DNA from: a virus
Strand: one strand, 5' to 3'
Virus record (IMG/VR): IMGVR_UViG_3300035698_028218
Span: 1-64,000 of that record
DNA: 64,000 nucleotides
A program made the position numbers and the translations under genes. Shown piece by piece: positions 3,051 through 13,957 of this stretch (positions are counted from its first letter, which is position 1; the number at the start of each line of letters is the position of its first letter). The notes below the pieces were generated by a model. It ran no database searches, was not told where the DNA came from, and saw only the letters and a program-made list of their open reading frames with translations.

Positions 3051-3820
3051 TAATCTAAATTTATATCATCCATCCATCCATGCAAAGTTATAATAACATT
3101 ACTTGGTTTGAATCCAATTCTAGTAAAGGCTCTATTTACTGAGTCGTTATTTATTAAAACATTATGTTCTTCCCAATGAAACCCCATTTCAGAACCCCAC
3201 TCTAACCCAGCAATTGTAATGTCTTGAAATATACCCTTTCCTCTGTGTTTGGGGTCTACTGCACCCATACCACCCGCTGCATATATTTTACCTCCCTCAT
3301 CATATGTTTTAAATGAGAGATACCCTGCAACTTCACCATCTTTCTCTGCAACCAATATCTTATCTGCCACGTTTAGGTTTGTGCAAGTATTATATGCCCA
3401 ATCACCATATGCATCTAAACAATCATTTTTTTTTAATCTTTTGTTTGCAAAATAATGACCATAGTTATTAAAACATATTCTAGCCAATTTAACCATTCTT
3501 GATGTATCTTCTACTTTAAAATCTCTTATTATAAATGACCCATCTCTCTTTGGTAACTTAGTAATATTAAAGTCTTTGAGATTATAATAATATGTTTGTT
3601 GTGCATCTTTAATTCCAAACCCATAACTCTCTAGTTGGTTTATAATTTCAATATTATCGAATCCCATTCTTGCAATAACTAATTCATATTTATTGTCTAA
3701 TAAATATGAAATACCCTCATTAATCCCTTTGTTATTGAGGAATTCATTATTTATTTTACCAACCTTAATATTAAATCTTTTACTATCTATTCCACTATAT
3801 ATATCCATCACCAAATACAA
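3050..3820 (-). CDS. GNAT-family N-acetyltransferase
   Basis: 256 aa. The C-terminal half (about residues 95-250) has the GNAT fold pattern: a strand ending GEVAGYLSF, then AAGGMGAVDPKHRGKGIFQDI, which contains the acetyl-CoA pyrophosphate loop (Q/RxxGxG/A-like HRGKGI), and a late INNDSVNRAFTRIGFKPS typical of the family. The N-terminal part is less clear and may be a substrate-recognition region, as in WecD-like amino-sugar acetyltransferases. It shares one base with the aminotransferase gene downstream, so acetylation of the amino sugar made next door is the simplest proposal. Confidence 0.8.
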   Translation of the reverse strand: MYLVMDIYSGIDSKRFNIKVGKINNEFLNNKGINEGISYLLDNKYELVIARMGFDNIEIINQLESYGFGIKDAQQTYYYNLKDFNITKLPKRDGSFIIRDFKVEDTSRMVKLARICFNNYGHYFANKRLKKNDCLDAYGDWAYNTCTNLNVADKILVAEKDGEVAGYLSFKTYDEGGKIYAAGGMGAVDPKHRGKGIFQDITIAGLEWGSEMGFHWEEHNVLINNDSVNRAFTRIGFKPSNVIITLHGWMDDINLD

Positions 3821-4561: not shown

Positions 4562-5296
4562 TTATTTACTTAACTGAACAGTTTTCCAACCATTCTTTAT
4601 ACAATGTATAGTAGTTTCGTTTCTTAGGTCTAGGTGATTACTTATTTTCCAAGAACTATTTTCGTCCGACCCTACTCTCCAACCATAATCCACATCACAA
4701 GACCATAAATTTTTATTATCTACGGGGTGTGGAGGTACGAAGGTATTTATATTACCATATTTTTGAGCTAAATATGAAAACATAATATCCTCACCATTAT
4801 CCCAAGTGAATGGTTTTTCATAAAAAAGATATTTACTCCATTCTTGTTTAAAAAACCATGCGTGACCAACAAGATCAACCCTCTCAATACTACTTGAATT
4901 AGTGCCATTCCACCCTACTTTAGTGTGTGGTACATAACCATTACTATGCTGTAGAATACCGCTACCGCCATATATACCCTCTTGTTTTGACATTGAATCT
5001 AAACAATTTTTAAACCAATCTTTTTGAGGTAAAATATCGTCATCAAACATTGCGATATACTCTGTTCTACACAATAATGGTATAGTAAATCTACCAAAGA
5101 ATTTAGTGTTCCAATTACATTCGTATGTGTTTATTTTCTCATCTTCAGGTAAATATTGATCAATACCAGAGTTATTAAACCAAACATGAATATTTTCAGG
5201 TTTAATTCTAATACTTTGATTTAGTATTGCCTCAATTTGTTTTTCTAGTGTATCAGGTCTTTTATACACATTTAAAATTACACTTATATCACTCAT
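4562..5296 (-). CDS. GT-A (family 2-like) glycosyltransferase
   Basis: 244 aa. The N-terminus SDISVILNVYKRPDTLEKQI is the usual GT2 nucleotide-binding start. EYIAMFDDDILPQKDW (about residues 79-94) holds the metal-binding DxD motif. Later WDNGEDIMFSY supplies an ED pair at the usual place of the catalytic base. No membrane helix is present. It belongs to the glycan operon, packed within two bases of the neighbouring glycosyltransferases. Sugar specificity is unknown. Confidence 0.85.
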   Translation of the reverse strand: MSDISVILNVYKRPDTLEKQIEAILNQSIRIKPENIHVWFNNSGIDQYLPEDEKINTYECNWNTKFFGRFTIPLLCRTEYIAMFDDDILPQKDWFKNCLDSMSKQEGIYGGSGILQHSNGYVPHTKVGWNGTNSSSIERVDLVGHAWFFKQEWSKYLFYEKPFTWDNGEDIMFSYLAQKYGNINTFVPPHPVDNKNLWSCDVDYGWRVGSDENSSWKISNHLDLRNETTIHCIKNGWKTVQLSK

Positions 5297-5297
5297 T

Positions 5298-6200
5298 TTA
5301 ATCTATTCCAAGTACATCATAATATAGTTCTTCGATTAATTCAACAGAATTATCACTTCTATATTTTTCCACATCTTTTGGTACTTCTTGATAAGTTATG
5401 TCGAAAATAGTACCAGTATTATCAACCTCATAAATATATGCTGGTTTACCACAAAGCCAACCTTCTATTGTTGTTCTACCTCTAAAAATACCGATAGTAG
5501 TGTCACATTTTTTATAGTAATCTTCAACATTTTCTTTTATACCAAAATATGTTATATGACTATATTTTAATAAACTTGACATTACATTGAGTCTATCAAT
5601 TCCAATAATCCAAAACTCTTTACCTTCTCTTTCAGTTCTTTTTGCGGTATGATTGATCATATTGATTCTTAAATGATCAATAGTACCAACAAAAAGAACA
5701 ATTTCCTTTTCATTCTTTTTTTCTTTACTATAATTTGTGTTAAATCTTTCATGATCAAATGGATTGTCAATATGAATTATTTTATCTTCTTTAATACCAT
5801 ACGACATTATATAGTCTTTAATAGTATCTCTAATTGAAATATATTTTTTAATCTGTGGTGAAATAATTGGCACTTCAAAAACAGGAATAACCTCAGACCT
5901 AACATGCATTACGGCAGGTACATTGGGATAATTTCTTAAAATTATCTCACCTATTGGTTTGTGATTAATATGAAGGATATCAAATTTTTGTTTAGGTGCC
6001 TCACTTACATGAAAAACATTTACACCATATTCACTAATCATAGAAACCAACGGTTCCCCAACAATATTAGCTACAATAGTTACGTTATGCTCCCATTTAC
6101 TTAATTGCTTTGCCATTTCAAAATTAGAAATTTCTGAACCAGTAAAACTATTAAATGAATTACAACAAATTAATATATTAAAACCACTAAAATCTTCCAT
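5298..6200 (-). CDS. GT-B (family 4-like) glycosyltransferase
   Basis: 300 aa, shorter than the typical 350-400 aa. The N-terminal FTGSEISNFEMAKQLSKWEHNVTIVAN is the acceptor-side Rossmann start of GT4 enzymes (glycine-rich loop, then hydrophobic strand). IHIDNPFDHERFN and IVLFVGTIDHLR mark the domain boundary. The segment from GIFRGRTTIEGWLCGKPAYIYE is the donor-binding end with the family E-x7-E-like region. It starts one base inside the upstream glycosyltransferase gene. It probably adds one sugar in the same glycan. Confidence 0.83.
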   Translation of the reverse strand: MEDFSGFNILICCNSFNSFTGSEISNFEMAKQLSKWEHNVTIVANIVGEPLVSMISEYGVNVFHVSEAPKQKFDILHINHKPIGEIILRNYPNVPAVMHVRSEVIPVFEVPIISPQIKKYISIRDTIKDYIMSYGIKEDKIIHIDNPFDHERFNTNYSKEKKNEKEIVLFVGTIDHLRINMINHTAKRTEREGKEFWIIGIDRLNVMSSLLKYSHITYFGIKENVEDYYKKCDTTIGIFRGRTTIEGWLCGKPAYIYEVDNTGTIFDITYQEVPKDVEKYRSDNSVELIEELYYDVLGID

Positions 6201-6913
6201 TAATTCTCTAGTTTTAGGGGTAGGTCATCTTTAAAGTGATTAACAAACATTAATCTATTTAATTCCCACTCACCATTTACTTGACCTATGGATAGGTGAG
6301 TTACTCTAATATCAGTAACGACACCAATATTACAACCAGCAAGGTAATTACTAATACAAAACGGTATGTCGTAATAATGAAACATACCAAATCTTAAATC
6401 AAACTCTTCTTCAATATTAAACGGATCAACAGCCATAAATAAACCATCAATTGCCACAACTGGCTTAACTCCTCTAAATTCTTGTGAGTATGTACTAGTA
6501 TATTCCTCTAGACCGTTATCGTGATTAACAATACCATACATTCCCTTTGTTTTCATTTGGTTGGTCTCATCTAACCACCAAACACCGTTTTCTTCAATTG
6601 TATCTGTTCCTGCGATTCCAATTATCTGATAGTCATTATTTCTATCATTAAAATGCATCAATAATCTATTGCCCCAATTTTTTGTATTGAATAAAACATC
6701 GTTATGAACAAATACTGCGATTGTAGATTCCTTATCTTCAATTTCAGAAAGTGCTCTATTATAAAGTTCTGGGAGAGAATATTCTCTTTTATTTTCGTAC
6801 CTCTTTAATTTATACTTGTGGCTACCTATGGTTCTCTTTACTCTTTCTTCAAATAATGAGTCTTCCTCATGTGATAGATGTGTTGAATAAATAACAACAA
6901 TTTTCTTCTTCAT
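6200..6913 (-). CDS. StrF/GT2-like glycosyltransferase
   Basis: 237 aa. The pattern SLPELYNRALSEIE, then TIAVFVHNDVLFNTKNWG, matches the StrF-type glycosyltransferase domain (SLAxxYNxGxxxA and vFxHDDV). GIAGTDTI follows at the expected place, and VVAIDGLFMAVDP and FHYYDIPFCISNYLAG complete the fold. HND replaces the more usual HDD. It is the first gene of the glycan cassette and begins only 17 nt after the gp53-like tail gene. No promoter box is seen between, so it is probably transcribed with the tail genes. Confidence 0.8.
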   Translation of the reverse strand: MKKKIVVIYSTHLSHEEDSLFEERVKRTIGSHKYKLKRYENKREYSLPELYNRALSEIEDKESTIAVFVHNDVLFNTKNWGNRLLMHFNDRNNDYQIIGIAGTDTIEENGVWWLDETNQMKTKGMYGIVNHDNGLEEYTSTYSQEFRGVKPVVAIDGLFMAVDPFNIEEEFDLRFGMFHYYDIPFCISNYLAGCNIGVVTDIRVTHLSIGQVNGEWELNRLMFVNHFKDDLPLKLEN

Positions 6914-10470: not shown

Positions 10471-12837
10471 CTAACTAGCTGCACTTATTTGATTTTTTTG
10501 ATCTGATTGTTGTATTTCCAAACGTCTAGCTAAATTAAGACCCTCACTAACCTTGTCACTATCTAGGTACATATCAACTTGTAAATTCATTGCAACTTCC
10601 TTATTTGAGAACTCAACTTTTAGTGGTTTAGATAAAATACCTGCTAGTGATGAGAATGAAGATGAATTAGTTTGTAGTCTAGAAATATCTTGTAATAATC
10701 CTCTTATTTCAGTTAAATTAGATGTGTCACTTTTTAGTAAAGTATTTAATGGTTCTAATCCTGCACCTAGTTTTTGTATACCATCTGCATGTTTTGCCAT
10801 TCCAGATATTGATTTATTCAATGTAATTGCACCTATTATACCCATTGGGTTACCCATCATTAATGATGCTGCACCAATTCCTGCCATACCAACTCCAATT
10901 CCATTTATATTTACATTATCTAATTTACTAAGACCCTCAGCCATTTTACCTATACCAGAAGCAGCAATACCAATTCCAGCACCAATCATAGTAACTGTAC
11001 CGCCTAACGCAAGCATACCCACTGCACCAGCTGTTGCTGCTGCACCAACAATTGGTAGTATTACCATTAAATTTCCTAATCCTAATCTAATTTCTTTTAG
11101 TGCTTTTAATTGTTTATCGTCAAGTCCTTTTAATGAATCGGAAATCATAGAAATACCTTTCCCTGCCATCATTATTCCTGCACCAGTACCAGCAGTAGCT
11201 AATCCAATTCCAGCACCGCCTTTTAGCATTCCACCTCCACCTTTTAACATACCAGCACCACCACTACCGCCCAGAGCCATGCTACCTAATTTAAATGCTC
11301 CTTTTAGAAGACCACCAGCACCAATTAGTGCAACTGCAACGGCACCTGCCATTTTCCATGATGTATTTAAATCGTCTACCCATTTAACACCTCTTTCAAC
11401 AACGGGTCTCATTTTTTCAAGAACTTTATTTACACCAGTTAATACTGGTAGTAATGTTGCTTTTAGTGATTGTATTGTATTTTGAAATGCATCTTCAAAG
11501 TTTTGTGCTGCTTTTGCTCTTTCTTCAAGTGATTTACTTTGTGATACTACCGCATCAAGTTGTGACTTAGTTAATGTGCCTATGTCTTTAGTAACACCAG
11601 CAATTGAGAACTTACCTGTTTTATTATTAAGCCTTGCCATACCCTCAACAGCTTCTTTTTGTTCCCTACTGAACCCACTATTAATCATTTCTGATCTCAT
11701 TTTCTGAATTAGAGTCATTTGCTTTGCTTGATTTACAAGCTGACCAGTATCCATACCCAATGCTTGACCAACTCTTTCAAGTCTATCAATATCAACTGCC
11801 GAAACAAATGTTTCAAAAGTACCATCCGCATTTTTCTTAAAGGTTGCAACACCTTTAGTCATCTCATTAATTTTTTGAGTGAACTTAGCTGGATCGTTAC
11901 GTGATAAGAAAAGTAATTCAAATGGATCACTTTTTGCAAACTCACCACCCATAACTTGTAATTGTGCTGCTAGGTCTACAGCACCTTCTAATGTTCTTGC
12001 TCTACCAGCAGAATCTATCATAGACCCCATATCGATCTTAAACTTCTCACTATATGCTGCCATTTTAGCAAAATCTTTGACACCATTTCTGAATGTCATT
12101 GTTTGTAGTCTATTAAAGTTAGCTGATATATTTTTGAATACCTTAGTCGCATTCACGCCCATTCTGTCGGTGGTATTTAATATTTGTTCTATGTTCGATG
12201 CAGAATTTTCTGCATTTAGTCCCATTAATTCAAACTGACCCGCAAGTTTAGCTGCGTTTTCTATACCTAATCCAGTCCCAGCACCAATTAATGCTATTGA
12301 TTTATATGATTCTGCTGAAAGTAATGCTGCTCTACCCGTCTCGTCTGCGTAAATTTTTGCTGCAACAGCTAATTCTCCAGTACTTATACCTAACTGTGCT
12401 GAAAATGATGCTGCTCCCTCGATTGATGATCTTACTATTTGAGATTTGGCTGCGGTAATACCAAATTCAAGGCTGATTGACTTAATCGCCTTATCTGATT
12501 GCATTAAATAATCTCTGGTTGATTTGGTTTTATTCCAAATTTTACCTAAAACATCAGATATATTTCTTTCGGTTTTAAGTTTTTTATCTAAATTTCTTAG
12601 TTCTTCTCTTTGGGTCTTTAATATATCTCTTTTTTTAATTAACTCACTCCCAGTAAGACTTAAACTTTCCTTCTCTGATTCAACAAGTATTTTTTGTAGT
12701 AACCCTCTTTTTTCTTCAATTAGGTATTGTTTTTTCCTAGTATTGAGAGATAATGACATCGCATCTAACTCTTTTTTATTAAGTTCTAGACTTTCTCGTA
12801 AATTTTTAATTCTATTTTCCGAATTATCTTCTGCCAT
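10471..12837 (-). CDS. Tail tape measure protein
   Basis: 788 aa. About residues 1-100 are heptad-rich (long Leu/Lys/Glu coiled coil). The middle is Ala-rich helical sequence. About residues 490-690 are extremely hydrophobic Gly/Ala stretches (GGAGMLKGGGGMLKGGAG and similar), as expected of a tape measure that threads the tube and enters the membrane. The C-terminus is polar. It directly follows the tail-assembly chaperone pair, the standard order in tailed phages. By the general rule of about 0.15 nm per residue it implies a tail near 120 nm. A late-type box lies 17 nt before the start. Confidence 0.88.
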   Translation of the reverse strand: MAEDNSENRIKNLRESLELNKKELDAMSLSLNTRKKQYLIEEKRGLLQKILVESEKESLSLTGSELIKKRDILKTQREELRNLDKKLKTERNISDVLGKIWNKTKSTRDYLMQSDKAIKSISLEFGITAAKSQIVRSSIEGAASFSAQLGISTGELAVAAKIYADETGRAALLSAESYKSIALIGAGTGLGIENAAKLAGQFELMGLNAENSASNIEQILNTTDRMGVNATKVFKNISANFNRLQTMTFRNGVKDFAKMAAYSEKFKIDMGSMIDSAGRARTLEGAVDLAAQLQVMGGEFAKSDPFELLFLSRNDPAKFTQKINEMTKGVATFKKNADGTFETFVSAVDIDRLERVGQALGMDTGQLVNQAKQMTLIQKMRSEMINSGFSREQKEAVEGMARLNNKTGKFSIAGVTKDIGTLTKSQLDAVVSQSKSLEERAKAAQNFEDAFQNTIQSLKATLLPVLTGVNKVLEKMRPVVERGVKWVDDLNTSWKMAGAVAVALIGAGGLLKGAFKLGSMALGGSGGAGMLKGGGGMLKGGAGIGLATAGTGAGIMMAGKGISMISDSLKGLDDKQLKALKEIRLGLGNLMVILPIVGAAATAGAVGMLALGGTVTMIGAGIGIAASGIGKMAEGLSKLDNVNINGIGVGMAGIGAASLMMGNPMGIIGAITLNKSISGMAKHADGIQKLGAGLEPLNTLLKSDTSNLTEIRGLLQDISRLQTNSSSFSSLAGILSKPLKVEFSNKEVAMNLQVDMYLDSDKVSEGLNLARRLEIQQSDQKNQISAAS

Positions 12838-12875: not shown

Positions 12876-13034
12876 TTATGATCTCCCTCTACGTGCTTTA
12901 TCATACGCCTCTTCTTGTTCCTTCATTTCTTCTCTGAAAAGGGTTAAATAATATCTTCTATTATGTACTGGTATTTTTTTTATGTACTCTGCTGAAAAAT
13001 TAGCATGTTTAGTTAGAAGATAAATCTCCTGCAT
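12876..13034 (-). CDS. Tail assembly chaperone, downstream frame (probable frameshift extension)
   Basis: 52 codons from ATG 13034 to TAA 12876-12878: begins MQEIYLLTKHANFS, then a helical PVHNRRYYLTLFREEMKEQ, and ends basic. This pattern (short motif, then 'ERRYY' and a charged helix) is that of the second chaperone of tailed phages, the T part of lambda G/GT. The frame stays open upstream through the end of the gp26-like gene to the T9 run at 13071-13079. A -1 shift there gives an in-frame fusion (FFFPKSLLGEYKKIVMQE...) of about 360 aa. It can also be made alone from ATG 13034. It lies directly before the tape measure, as expected. Confidence 0.8.
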   Translation of the reverse strand: MQEIYLLTKHANFSAEYIKKIPVHNRRYYLTLFREEMKEQEEAYDKARRGRS

Positions 13035-13054
13035 CACAATTTTTTTGTACTCAC

Positions 13055-13957
13055 CTAAAAGAGACTTGGGAAAAAAAAATCCTCACCGACACTTAATTTT
13101 GACATAAATTTAAATCCATCTTTTGTTGAAAATTCATAACTCATATCAACATCTGGCATCACTTCCAGATATTTTCTCTTTATTACATTAACATCTCCTG
13201 CTCTCATTACATCAACAAACTTCCCGATATACTCTTTATCTGTTTTTCCATCGATTGATTGTATTCTTGCTTTTAATAAATCAGTACCAAACGTATCATA
13301 ATCCTTATTATATGTTTTCTTGATTTCAATAGCATTTTCAAAAATAAATTCTTCCTCACCAGAAGTTAATAATCTAAATTTTATTGTTTTACCTGACATT
13401 GGTAGGGTTTGTGAAAAAAGTCCATCACCATCAGGTAGTTCATCAACCTCCTTATATTTTAATTTTGTAAGGTCAACTACTGTTTCAAAACTATTTCCTG
13501 TTCTTGGGTCAGTAACAACTACATCGTAATTATTACCATATGAAGACATTCTAAGAAATAGTAGTATTGCATTTCTATCACCGCTAAGTAATTCATAAGG
13601 TCTAATATTTTTGTCTTTTAATTTTCGTTCAATTATAACGTCCATCATTTTGCCCTTCTCATTTAAAGATGGTGATGTTATTATATCCTCATCTTCAGAA
13701 GTTAAATAACCAACAGTAACTTCAGAAATATTATTCTTATAAAAAAGACCCTTAGATGGTAAATCAATAATCTCTGAAGACATAATCAAATCTGGATCAG
13801 TTTCAGATGTTGCCTGAGAATAATAATCCTTCTTAGGATTAATTGGGTTACTCTCTACTTTTGTGTTATTGATAACATTATTATCACCTTCTTTTTCTTC
13901 AGTACCTCTGATATTATCAAAGTTACTTAGTGCATCCTGTAAATTCTGTTCTGGCAT
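13055..13957 (-). CDS. 26: T4 gp26-like baseplate hub / tail chaperone protein
   Basis: 300 aa. After an acidic, disordered first 60 residues comes IDLPSKGLFYKNNISEVTVGYLTSEDEDIITSP, the hallmark of the T4 gp26 family (lPSkGxxY, then mtaxdEdxL). LLSGDRNAILLFLRMSSYG follows, also characteristic. In T4 this family is assigned to the baseplate hub; its position and the overlapping downstream frame also fit the first tail-assembly chaperone of other phages. The 0-frame ends at TAG 13055-13057, 13 nt after a T9C slippery run. A partial late-type box (TATAAATTT on plus, 13969-13977) and a better one at 14011-14019 lie upstream. Confidence 0.85.
   Translation of the reverse strand: MPEQNLQDALSNFDNIRGTEEKEGDNNVINNTKVESNPINPKKDYYSQATSETDPDLIMSSEIIDLPSKGLFYKNNISEVTVGYLTSEDEDIITSPSLNEKGKMMDVIIERKLKDKNIRPYELLSGDRNAILLFLRMSSYGNNYDVVVTDPRTGNSFETVVDLTKLKYKEVDELPDGDGLFSQTLPMSGKTIKFRLLTSGEEEFIFENAIEIKKTYNKDYDTFGTDLLKARIQSIDGKTDKEYIGKFVDVMRAGDVNVIKRKYLEVMPDVDMSYEFSTKDGFKFMSKLSVGEDFFFPSLF
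13070..13079 (-). other. Probable -1 ribosomal frameshift site (T9C)
   Basis: In the coding strand GAT TTT TTT TTC CCA contains the canonical heptamer T TTT TTC. Slipping one base back changes frame from the gp26-like protein into the 52-codon chaperone frame, which is open from here to 12876. The 0-frame stop follows four codons later. Confidence 0.8.

Follow-up and report, generated by a model that had tools for sequence, protein, structure and literature searches.

The question raised by this locus was whether a gp26-like gene that stops shortly after a run of nine T residues is also read, by a programmed -1 frameshift on that run, into a second frame, so that one gene would give two tail assembly chaperones. 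The window (the whole stretch of DNA that was analyzed, 64,000 nt) comprised positions 1 to 64,000 of IMG/VR record IMGVR_UViG_3300035698_028218. In T4, gp26 and gp51 are described as hub assembly chaperones (2010 T4 review, PMC3004832). At this locus a T4-like myovirus very probably encodes its tail assembly chaperones as a short form and a -1 frameshifted long form, for which we infer the slip itself, the slip rate and the chaperone function.

Layout of the locus

The features of the locus, with the basis of each assignment in brackets, were as follows.

13055 to 13957, minus strand: gp26-like 0-frame gene (TAC-N, G-like short form), 300 aa (PF12322, phrog_150, AlphaFold model).
13070 to 13080, minus strand: candidate slip site A-TTTTTTTTT-C, a T9 run with tandem registers U UUU UUU and U UUU UUC (sequence; clade conservation).
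13055 to 13057, minus strand: TAG, the 0-frame stop that terminates the short form (sequence).
12876 to 13079, minus strand: predicted -1 frame extension of the long form TAC-NC (T-like or gp51 C-terminal domain), 64 residues after the slip plus a stop codon (phrog_634; synonymous change in relatives).
10471 to 12837, minus strand: putative tape measure protein gene, 788 aa, downstream (position and length; synteny).

The minus-strand 3' end of the gp26-like gene was read as GTC GGT GAG GAT TTT TTT TTC CCA AGT CTC TTT TAG, which places A-T9-CCC at the slip site and the 0-frame stop four codons past TTC, as the first-pass annotation had described. Its further statement of an open -1 frame between the T9 run and 12876 was confirmed, and the translation of this frame was FFFPKSLLGEYKKIVMQEIYLLTKHANFSAEYIKKIPVHNRRYYLTLFREEMKEQEEAYDKARRGRS* (64 residues and a stop after TTC). 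At the base composition of the window, the chance of a 65-codon open run was about 0.4%, and no -1 frame open as long was found at any position of three neighbouring tail genes. The T9 run by itself was not rare, because six A or T runs of at least 9 were present in the window; its significance comes from being kept at precisely this position throughout the clade, in 39/39 non-identical sequences (described below). The A/T runs, of 9 – 10 bases, were located at 3426, 10211, 13071 (the slip run), 26540, 31236 and 62228. No stem-loop or other RNA stimulator was detected downstream of the window slip site (structure z +0.4 and +0.8). Nor did the window's clade show a conserved Shine-Dalgarno-like element upstream of the site.

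The gene at 10471-12837 started 38 bases past the extension stop. Its product gave no family match with Pfam-type or phrog profiles; the gene in this position was syntenic in the relatives L186-L188, and the gene at the equivalent position in Flavobacterium phage immuto is annotated as tape measure. The order of a chaperone pair followed by a tape measure gene, to which attention had been drawn earlier, was found here with the tape measure assigned by position and length only. Just past the tail genes, a row of three glycosyltransferase-like genes (PF13712, PF00535 and, below threshold, PF13439) was observed on the minus strand at 4562-6913 of the window.

Proteins encoded in the two frames

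The 0-frame protein was assigned to the T4 gp26 type, as had been proposed, because it matched PF12322 (T4_baseplate) at 42.4 bits, above the curated cut-off of 24.5 (E 8.7e-11); it also matched phrog_150 (baseplate hub; E 6e-9) and ended in a motif of the F-x-x-P or F-x-P type that is common to most of the gp26-like family. A search for solved structures matching the window protein by sequence returned none. The AlphaFold model (pLDDT 82) had the HK97 tail assembly chaperone 2ob9 as its top PDB match, at a weak score (Foldseek E 0.88, prob 0.44), and YqbN (3klu) as the second-ranked match. A second aligner superposed residues 49-140 of the model on 2ob9 (Z 5.5, rmsd 3.4, 85 aligned). The predicted model is weakly consistent with a chaperone fold.

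The extension was compared with the family of T4 gp51 (phrog_634). The window extension gave a weak match (E 0.03) and that of the relative L186 a somewhat better one (E 0.004), and the values for KVP40, P-SSM2 and T4 gp51 were 9e-22, 2e-29 and 1e-23, respectively. The extensions of the window clade, taken together, were matched to the cyanophage profile with E 4e-4 (probability only 37%). When the profile of the window extension was set directly against that of the T4 gp51 tails, the score was weak or not usable, the latter profile holding just two gp51 tails. These comparisons tentatively support assignment of the -1 extension to the T4 gp51 C-terminal family, with homology that is weak for the window's own extension and strong for other clades. 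Variation was then measured as minor-allele fraction in 38 sequences over 57 gapless codons, and the means for codon positions 1, 2 and 3 of the extension were 0.17, 0.08 and 0.30. Position 3 was the most variable, and the pattern is therefore that expected of a translated frame; judged from this alignment, the -1 frame is under protein-level constraint in the window clade. The earlier suggestion that this frame encodes a second tail chaperone is supported by this coding constraint and, more weakly, by the phrog_634 matches of the window and L186.

Conservation of the slip site in the window's clade

The presumed tape measure protein, used as query, recovered relatives at 46-47%, and the gp26-like proteins of these relatives were 48-50% identical to that of the window. 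A three-protein gp26-like alignment used as query then yielded 80 loci. The clade set was defined as 39 non-identical sequences, namely the window and 38 IMG/VR loci from many metagenomes; because a few of these were near-identical to one another, they do not amount to 39 independent events. The window gp26 alone as query had returned one locus only (at 35%), and an alignment of seven diverse gp26 proteins held no stretch conserved enough to serve as a search query.

The extension lay in the -1 frame in 39/39 non-identical clade sequences. The run was T9 in 31 of the 39 and T8 in the other 8, and the codons at the site were GAT TTT TTT TTC (31), GAC TTT TTT TTC (3), GAT TTT TTT TCC (4) or GAT TTT TTT TCT (1); every variant retained a perfect tandem slip register (U UUU UUU or U UUU UUC). 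The window, L186 and L188 shared GATTTTTTTTTCCCAAGTCT as an invariant block with diverging flanks. The alignment of relatives that the first-pass annotation had proposed thus gave a kept slip run between diverging flanks in this clade, and no relative without the run or with the two frames separated was present among the 39 sequences. Four relatives (L262, L269, L271 and L272) fell outside the simple pattern at the gp26 end. In L262 the longest open frame beyond the stop was -1 and was not chaperone-like, and in the group of L269, L271 and L272 the gp26 end was without the motif.

Slip sites in other T4-like phages

In cyanophage-type loci the site consisted of xxT TTT TTC followed by one codon and the stop, and the extension was in the -1 frame in 79/79 (77 non-identical). 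The second Phe codon was always TTC, although TTC made up 26% of the upstream Phe codons. The upstream Glu-Gly pair in these 79 loci was encoded by GAGGGN in 62, GAAGGG in 17 and GAAGGH in 0. GAA is the commoner Glu codon and GGG represents just 5% of Gly codons, so that, against codon usage, AGGG is held by codon choice. This AGGG was located about nine bases before the TTTTTTC heptamer in the cyanophage-type loci L106-L185. In P-SSM2, the small separate gene annotated as gp51 (L098, 3708-3881) fell inside the -1 extension of gp26.

A T TTT TTC site was also found in KVP40, 121Q, RaK2, Paride, Vibrio phage 2.275, Atu_ph07, IC12 and phiAS5. XacN1 and RAS14 carried T TTT TTT, and RL38J1 carried T TTT TTG. 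Cygsa01 had no slip run and had an overlapping TAATG instead.

In Flavobacterium immuto-type loci the extension was in the +1 (or -2) frame in all 79 loci reaching past the gp26 stop, and in 3 of the 79 it ran off the contig end. A later script covered 77 loci, with the cut-off loci L020, L033 and L083 excluded, and start codons were counted on 74 distinct loci. The motif was TTTTTTTGGCCTGA in 58/77 and TTTCTTTGGCCTGA in 14/77. In the immuto-type loci L010-L089, the gp26-like gene was observed to end in TTTYTTTGGCCTGA, with a long extension in the +1 or -2 frame. The extension was likewise +1 or -2 in RM378, Mel-JY01, SP-15, LIS04, GXN1 and LR756508. The two directions are indistinguishable from sequence because tRNA on YUU can re-pair about equally forwards and backwards; in immuto the two predicted products differ by a single residue. 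The GXN1 record (L005; PQ819873, Streptococcus phage vB_SagM-GXN1) is T4-like and 176 kb long; it came from pond water and is assigned to Streptococcus agalactiae, and the gp26 it encodes was closest to those of the Bacillus SP-15 and Listeria LIS04 phages.

Proposed mechanism and alternative explanations

The proposal of a programmed -1 shift that joins gp26 to a second chaperone part is supported, at the level of sequence, by conservation of the run, coding-type variation and the phrog_634 family. Normal translation would yield TAC-N, the gp26-like short form. On the T9 run, a minority of ribosomes would move back one base, with the P- and A-site tRNA-Phe re-pairing on U UUU UUU or U UUU UUC; these ribosomes would bypass the stop and produce the long form TAC-NC, with a domain of the T4 gp51 C-terminal type at its end. 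If lambda gpG/gpGT is taken as a guide, the product of the adjacent tape measure gene may be coated by the short form, and tube subunits may be brought in by the rare long form.

The frames could alternatively be fused in part of the mRNA by transcriptional slippage, in which RNA polymerase adds one U at the T9 run and the ribosome does not slip. Polymerase slippage can occur on runs as long as nine T residues, and most clade members (31/39) carry T9. Against this, 8/39 clade members have T8 only, the homologous cyanophage and KVP40 sites are T6 (T TTT TTC), which is short for polymerase slippage, and the cyanophage sites keep an upstream AGGG, a type of element that promotes -1 shifting by ribosomes. 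We consider transcriptional slippage unlikely.

It is also very unlikely that the downstream domain is made as a separate protein from its own GTG or ATG (13037 or 13034), unfused to gp26, where a fusion would have the junction FFFPKSLLGEYK. In 39/39 clade members the extension frame contained an ATG, GTG or TTG no more than 20 codons from the 0-frame stop, P-SSM2 has its small gene annotated separately as gp51, and Cygsa01 combines the missing slip run with an overlapping TAATG, all of which would suit separate genes. However, an SD-like 4-mer near the in-frame start was found in only 5/39 clade members and was missing from 34/39, and conservation of the slip run would have no reason. Only 5/74 distinct immuto-type loci had an ATG within the first 20 codons past the slip, and in T4, Stupor and Aeromonas phage 31 the domain is fused in frame within gp51.

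Homopolymers of nine are error-prone, but the splitting of one in-frame fusion gene by an assembly or sequencing error was ruled out for practical purposes by the recurrence of the T9/T8 site and -1 relation in another 38 non-identical loci of IMG/VR, drawn from many metagenomes, and by the 0-frame retaining the F-x-x-P or F-x-P type of end typical of most of the family.

The two-gene arrangement of T4

Two PF12322 genes per record were found in T4 and in Acinetobacter phage Stupor, and one was found in 18/20 other records, in a profile search that missed the gp26-like gene of immuto and Mel-JY01 (tblastn had detected both). T4 gp26 consists of the PF12322 domain alone, and gp51 consists of a PF12322 domain and about 48 further residues; T4 gp51 matched phrog_634, as did the KVP40 and P-SSM2 extensions. 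Aeromonas phage 31 also carries a gp26/gp51 pair. On a simple reading of these sequences, a frameshifted gene may have been replaced by two genes.

For the family as a whole, it seems fairly probable that a homologous T4-type chaperone gene kept its gp51-like extension while access to it changed repeatedly: by -1 slip on T runs (window clade, cyanophages, KVP40, jumbo phages), by +1 or -2 slip on TTTYTTTGGCC (immuto clade, RM378), by a separate coupled gene (Cygsa01), or by duplication into gp26 and an in-frame gp51 (T4, Acinetobacter and Aeromonas T4-like phages). Most T4-like groups sampled are thereby indicated to use frameshifting, and the two-gene layout of T4 looks like the exception. 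A divergent uncultured T4-like lineage would be placed in the G/GT-type chaperone scheme. Annotation could be corrected in some public genomes, for example those of P-SSM2, immuto and RM378, where the extension is annotated as a separate small gene or only partly. A gene family in which the slip direction switches would form a natural series for testing control of the short:long ratio.

Comparison with known systems

Conservation of the G-T shift is widespread among long-tailed phages, with T4 as the exception, and phages may use -1, -2 or +1 shifts (2016 recoding review, PMC5009743). Vladimirov, Gautam and Davidson (Virology 2022) are credited with the T4-like chaperone genes by two citing papers (PMC10274946, PMC12846349), through which that work is described here. 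According to PMC10274946, they reported one short and one fused chaperone gene in some T4-like phages, and according to PMC12846349, they reported poly-T -1 signals in T4-like TAC-N genes; the genes concerned are presumably gp26 and gp51. Because the T4-like genes, the pairing of a short with a long form and the poly-T signal are all credited to the 2022 study by the citing papers, the concept was already known. The proposal that gp26 and the G/GT chaperones form one system is thus supported by the present locus, its general point having been published in 2022 as reported by these papers. A change of slip direction in the T4-type family and a kept AGGG element were not found in open-licence literature, which is weak evidence of novelty.

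By family, the window resembles the T4-like chaperones of the 2022 study, as these are described by the citing papers, in combining PF12322 with a putative phrog_634 C-terminal domain. It differs from T4 in that its clade has a T9/T8 run, whereas T4 dispenses with the shift and has two genes. The HK97 tail assembly chaperone (2ob9) was the best PDB match of the predicted fold, but the match spans just about one third of the window protein and its score is weak. The Vandenendeviridae/Andersonviridae TAC, with its GTTTTT site (PMC12846349), is similar in having a poly-T -1 shift at the TAC-N end before the tape measure gene; these are other phage families, likened here by description and not by sequence. 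The slip site differs from that of lambda gpG/gpGT (Xu, Hendrix, Duda 2004, 2013, 2014; reviewed in PMC5009743), to which the window is likened by layout and not by sequence: a short gene with a slip near its 3' end, a longer minor product (predicted in the window), and a position just before the tape measure gene.
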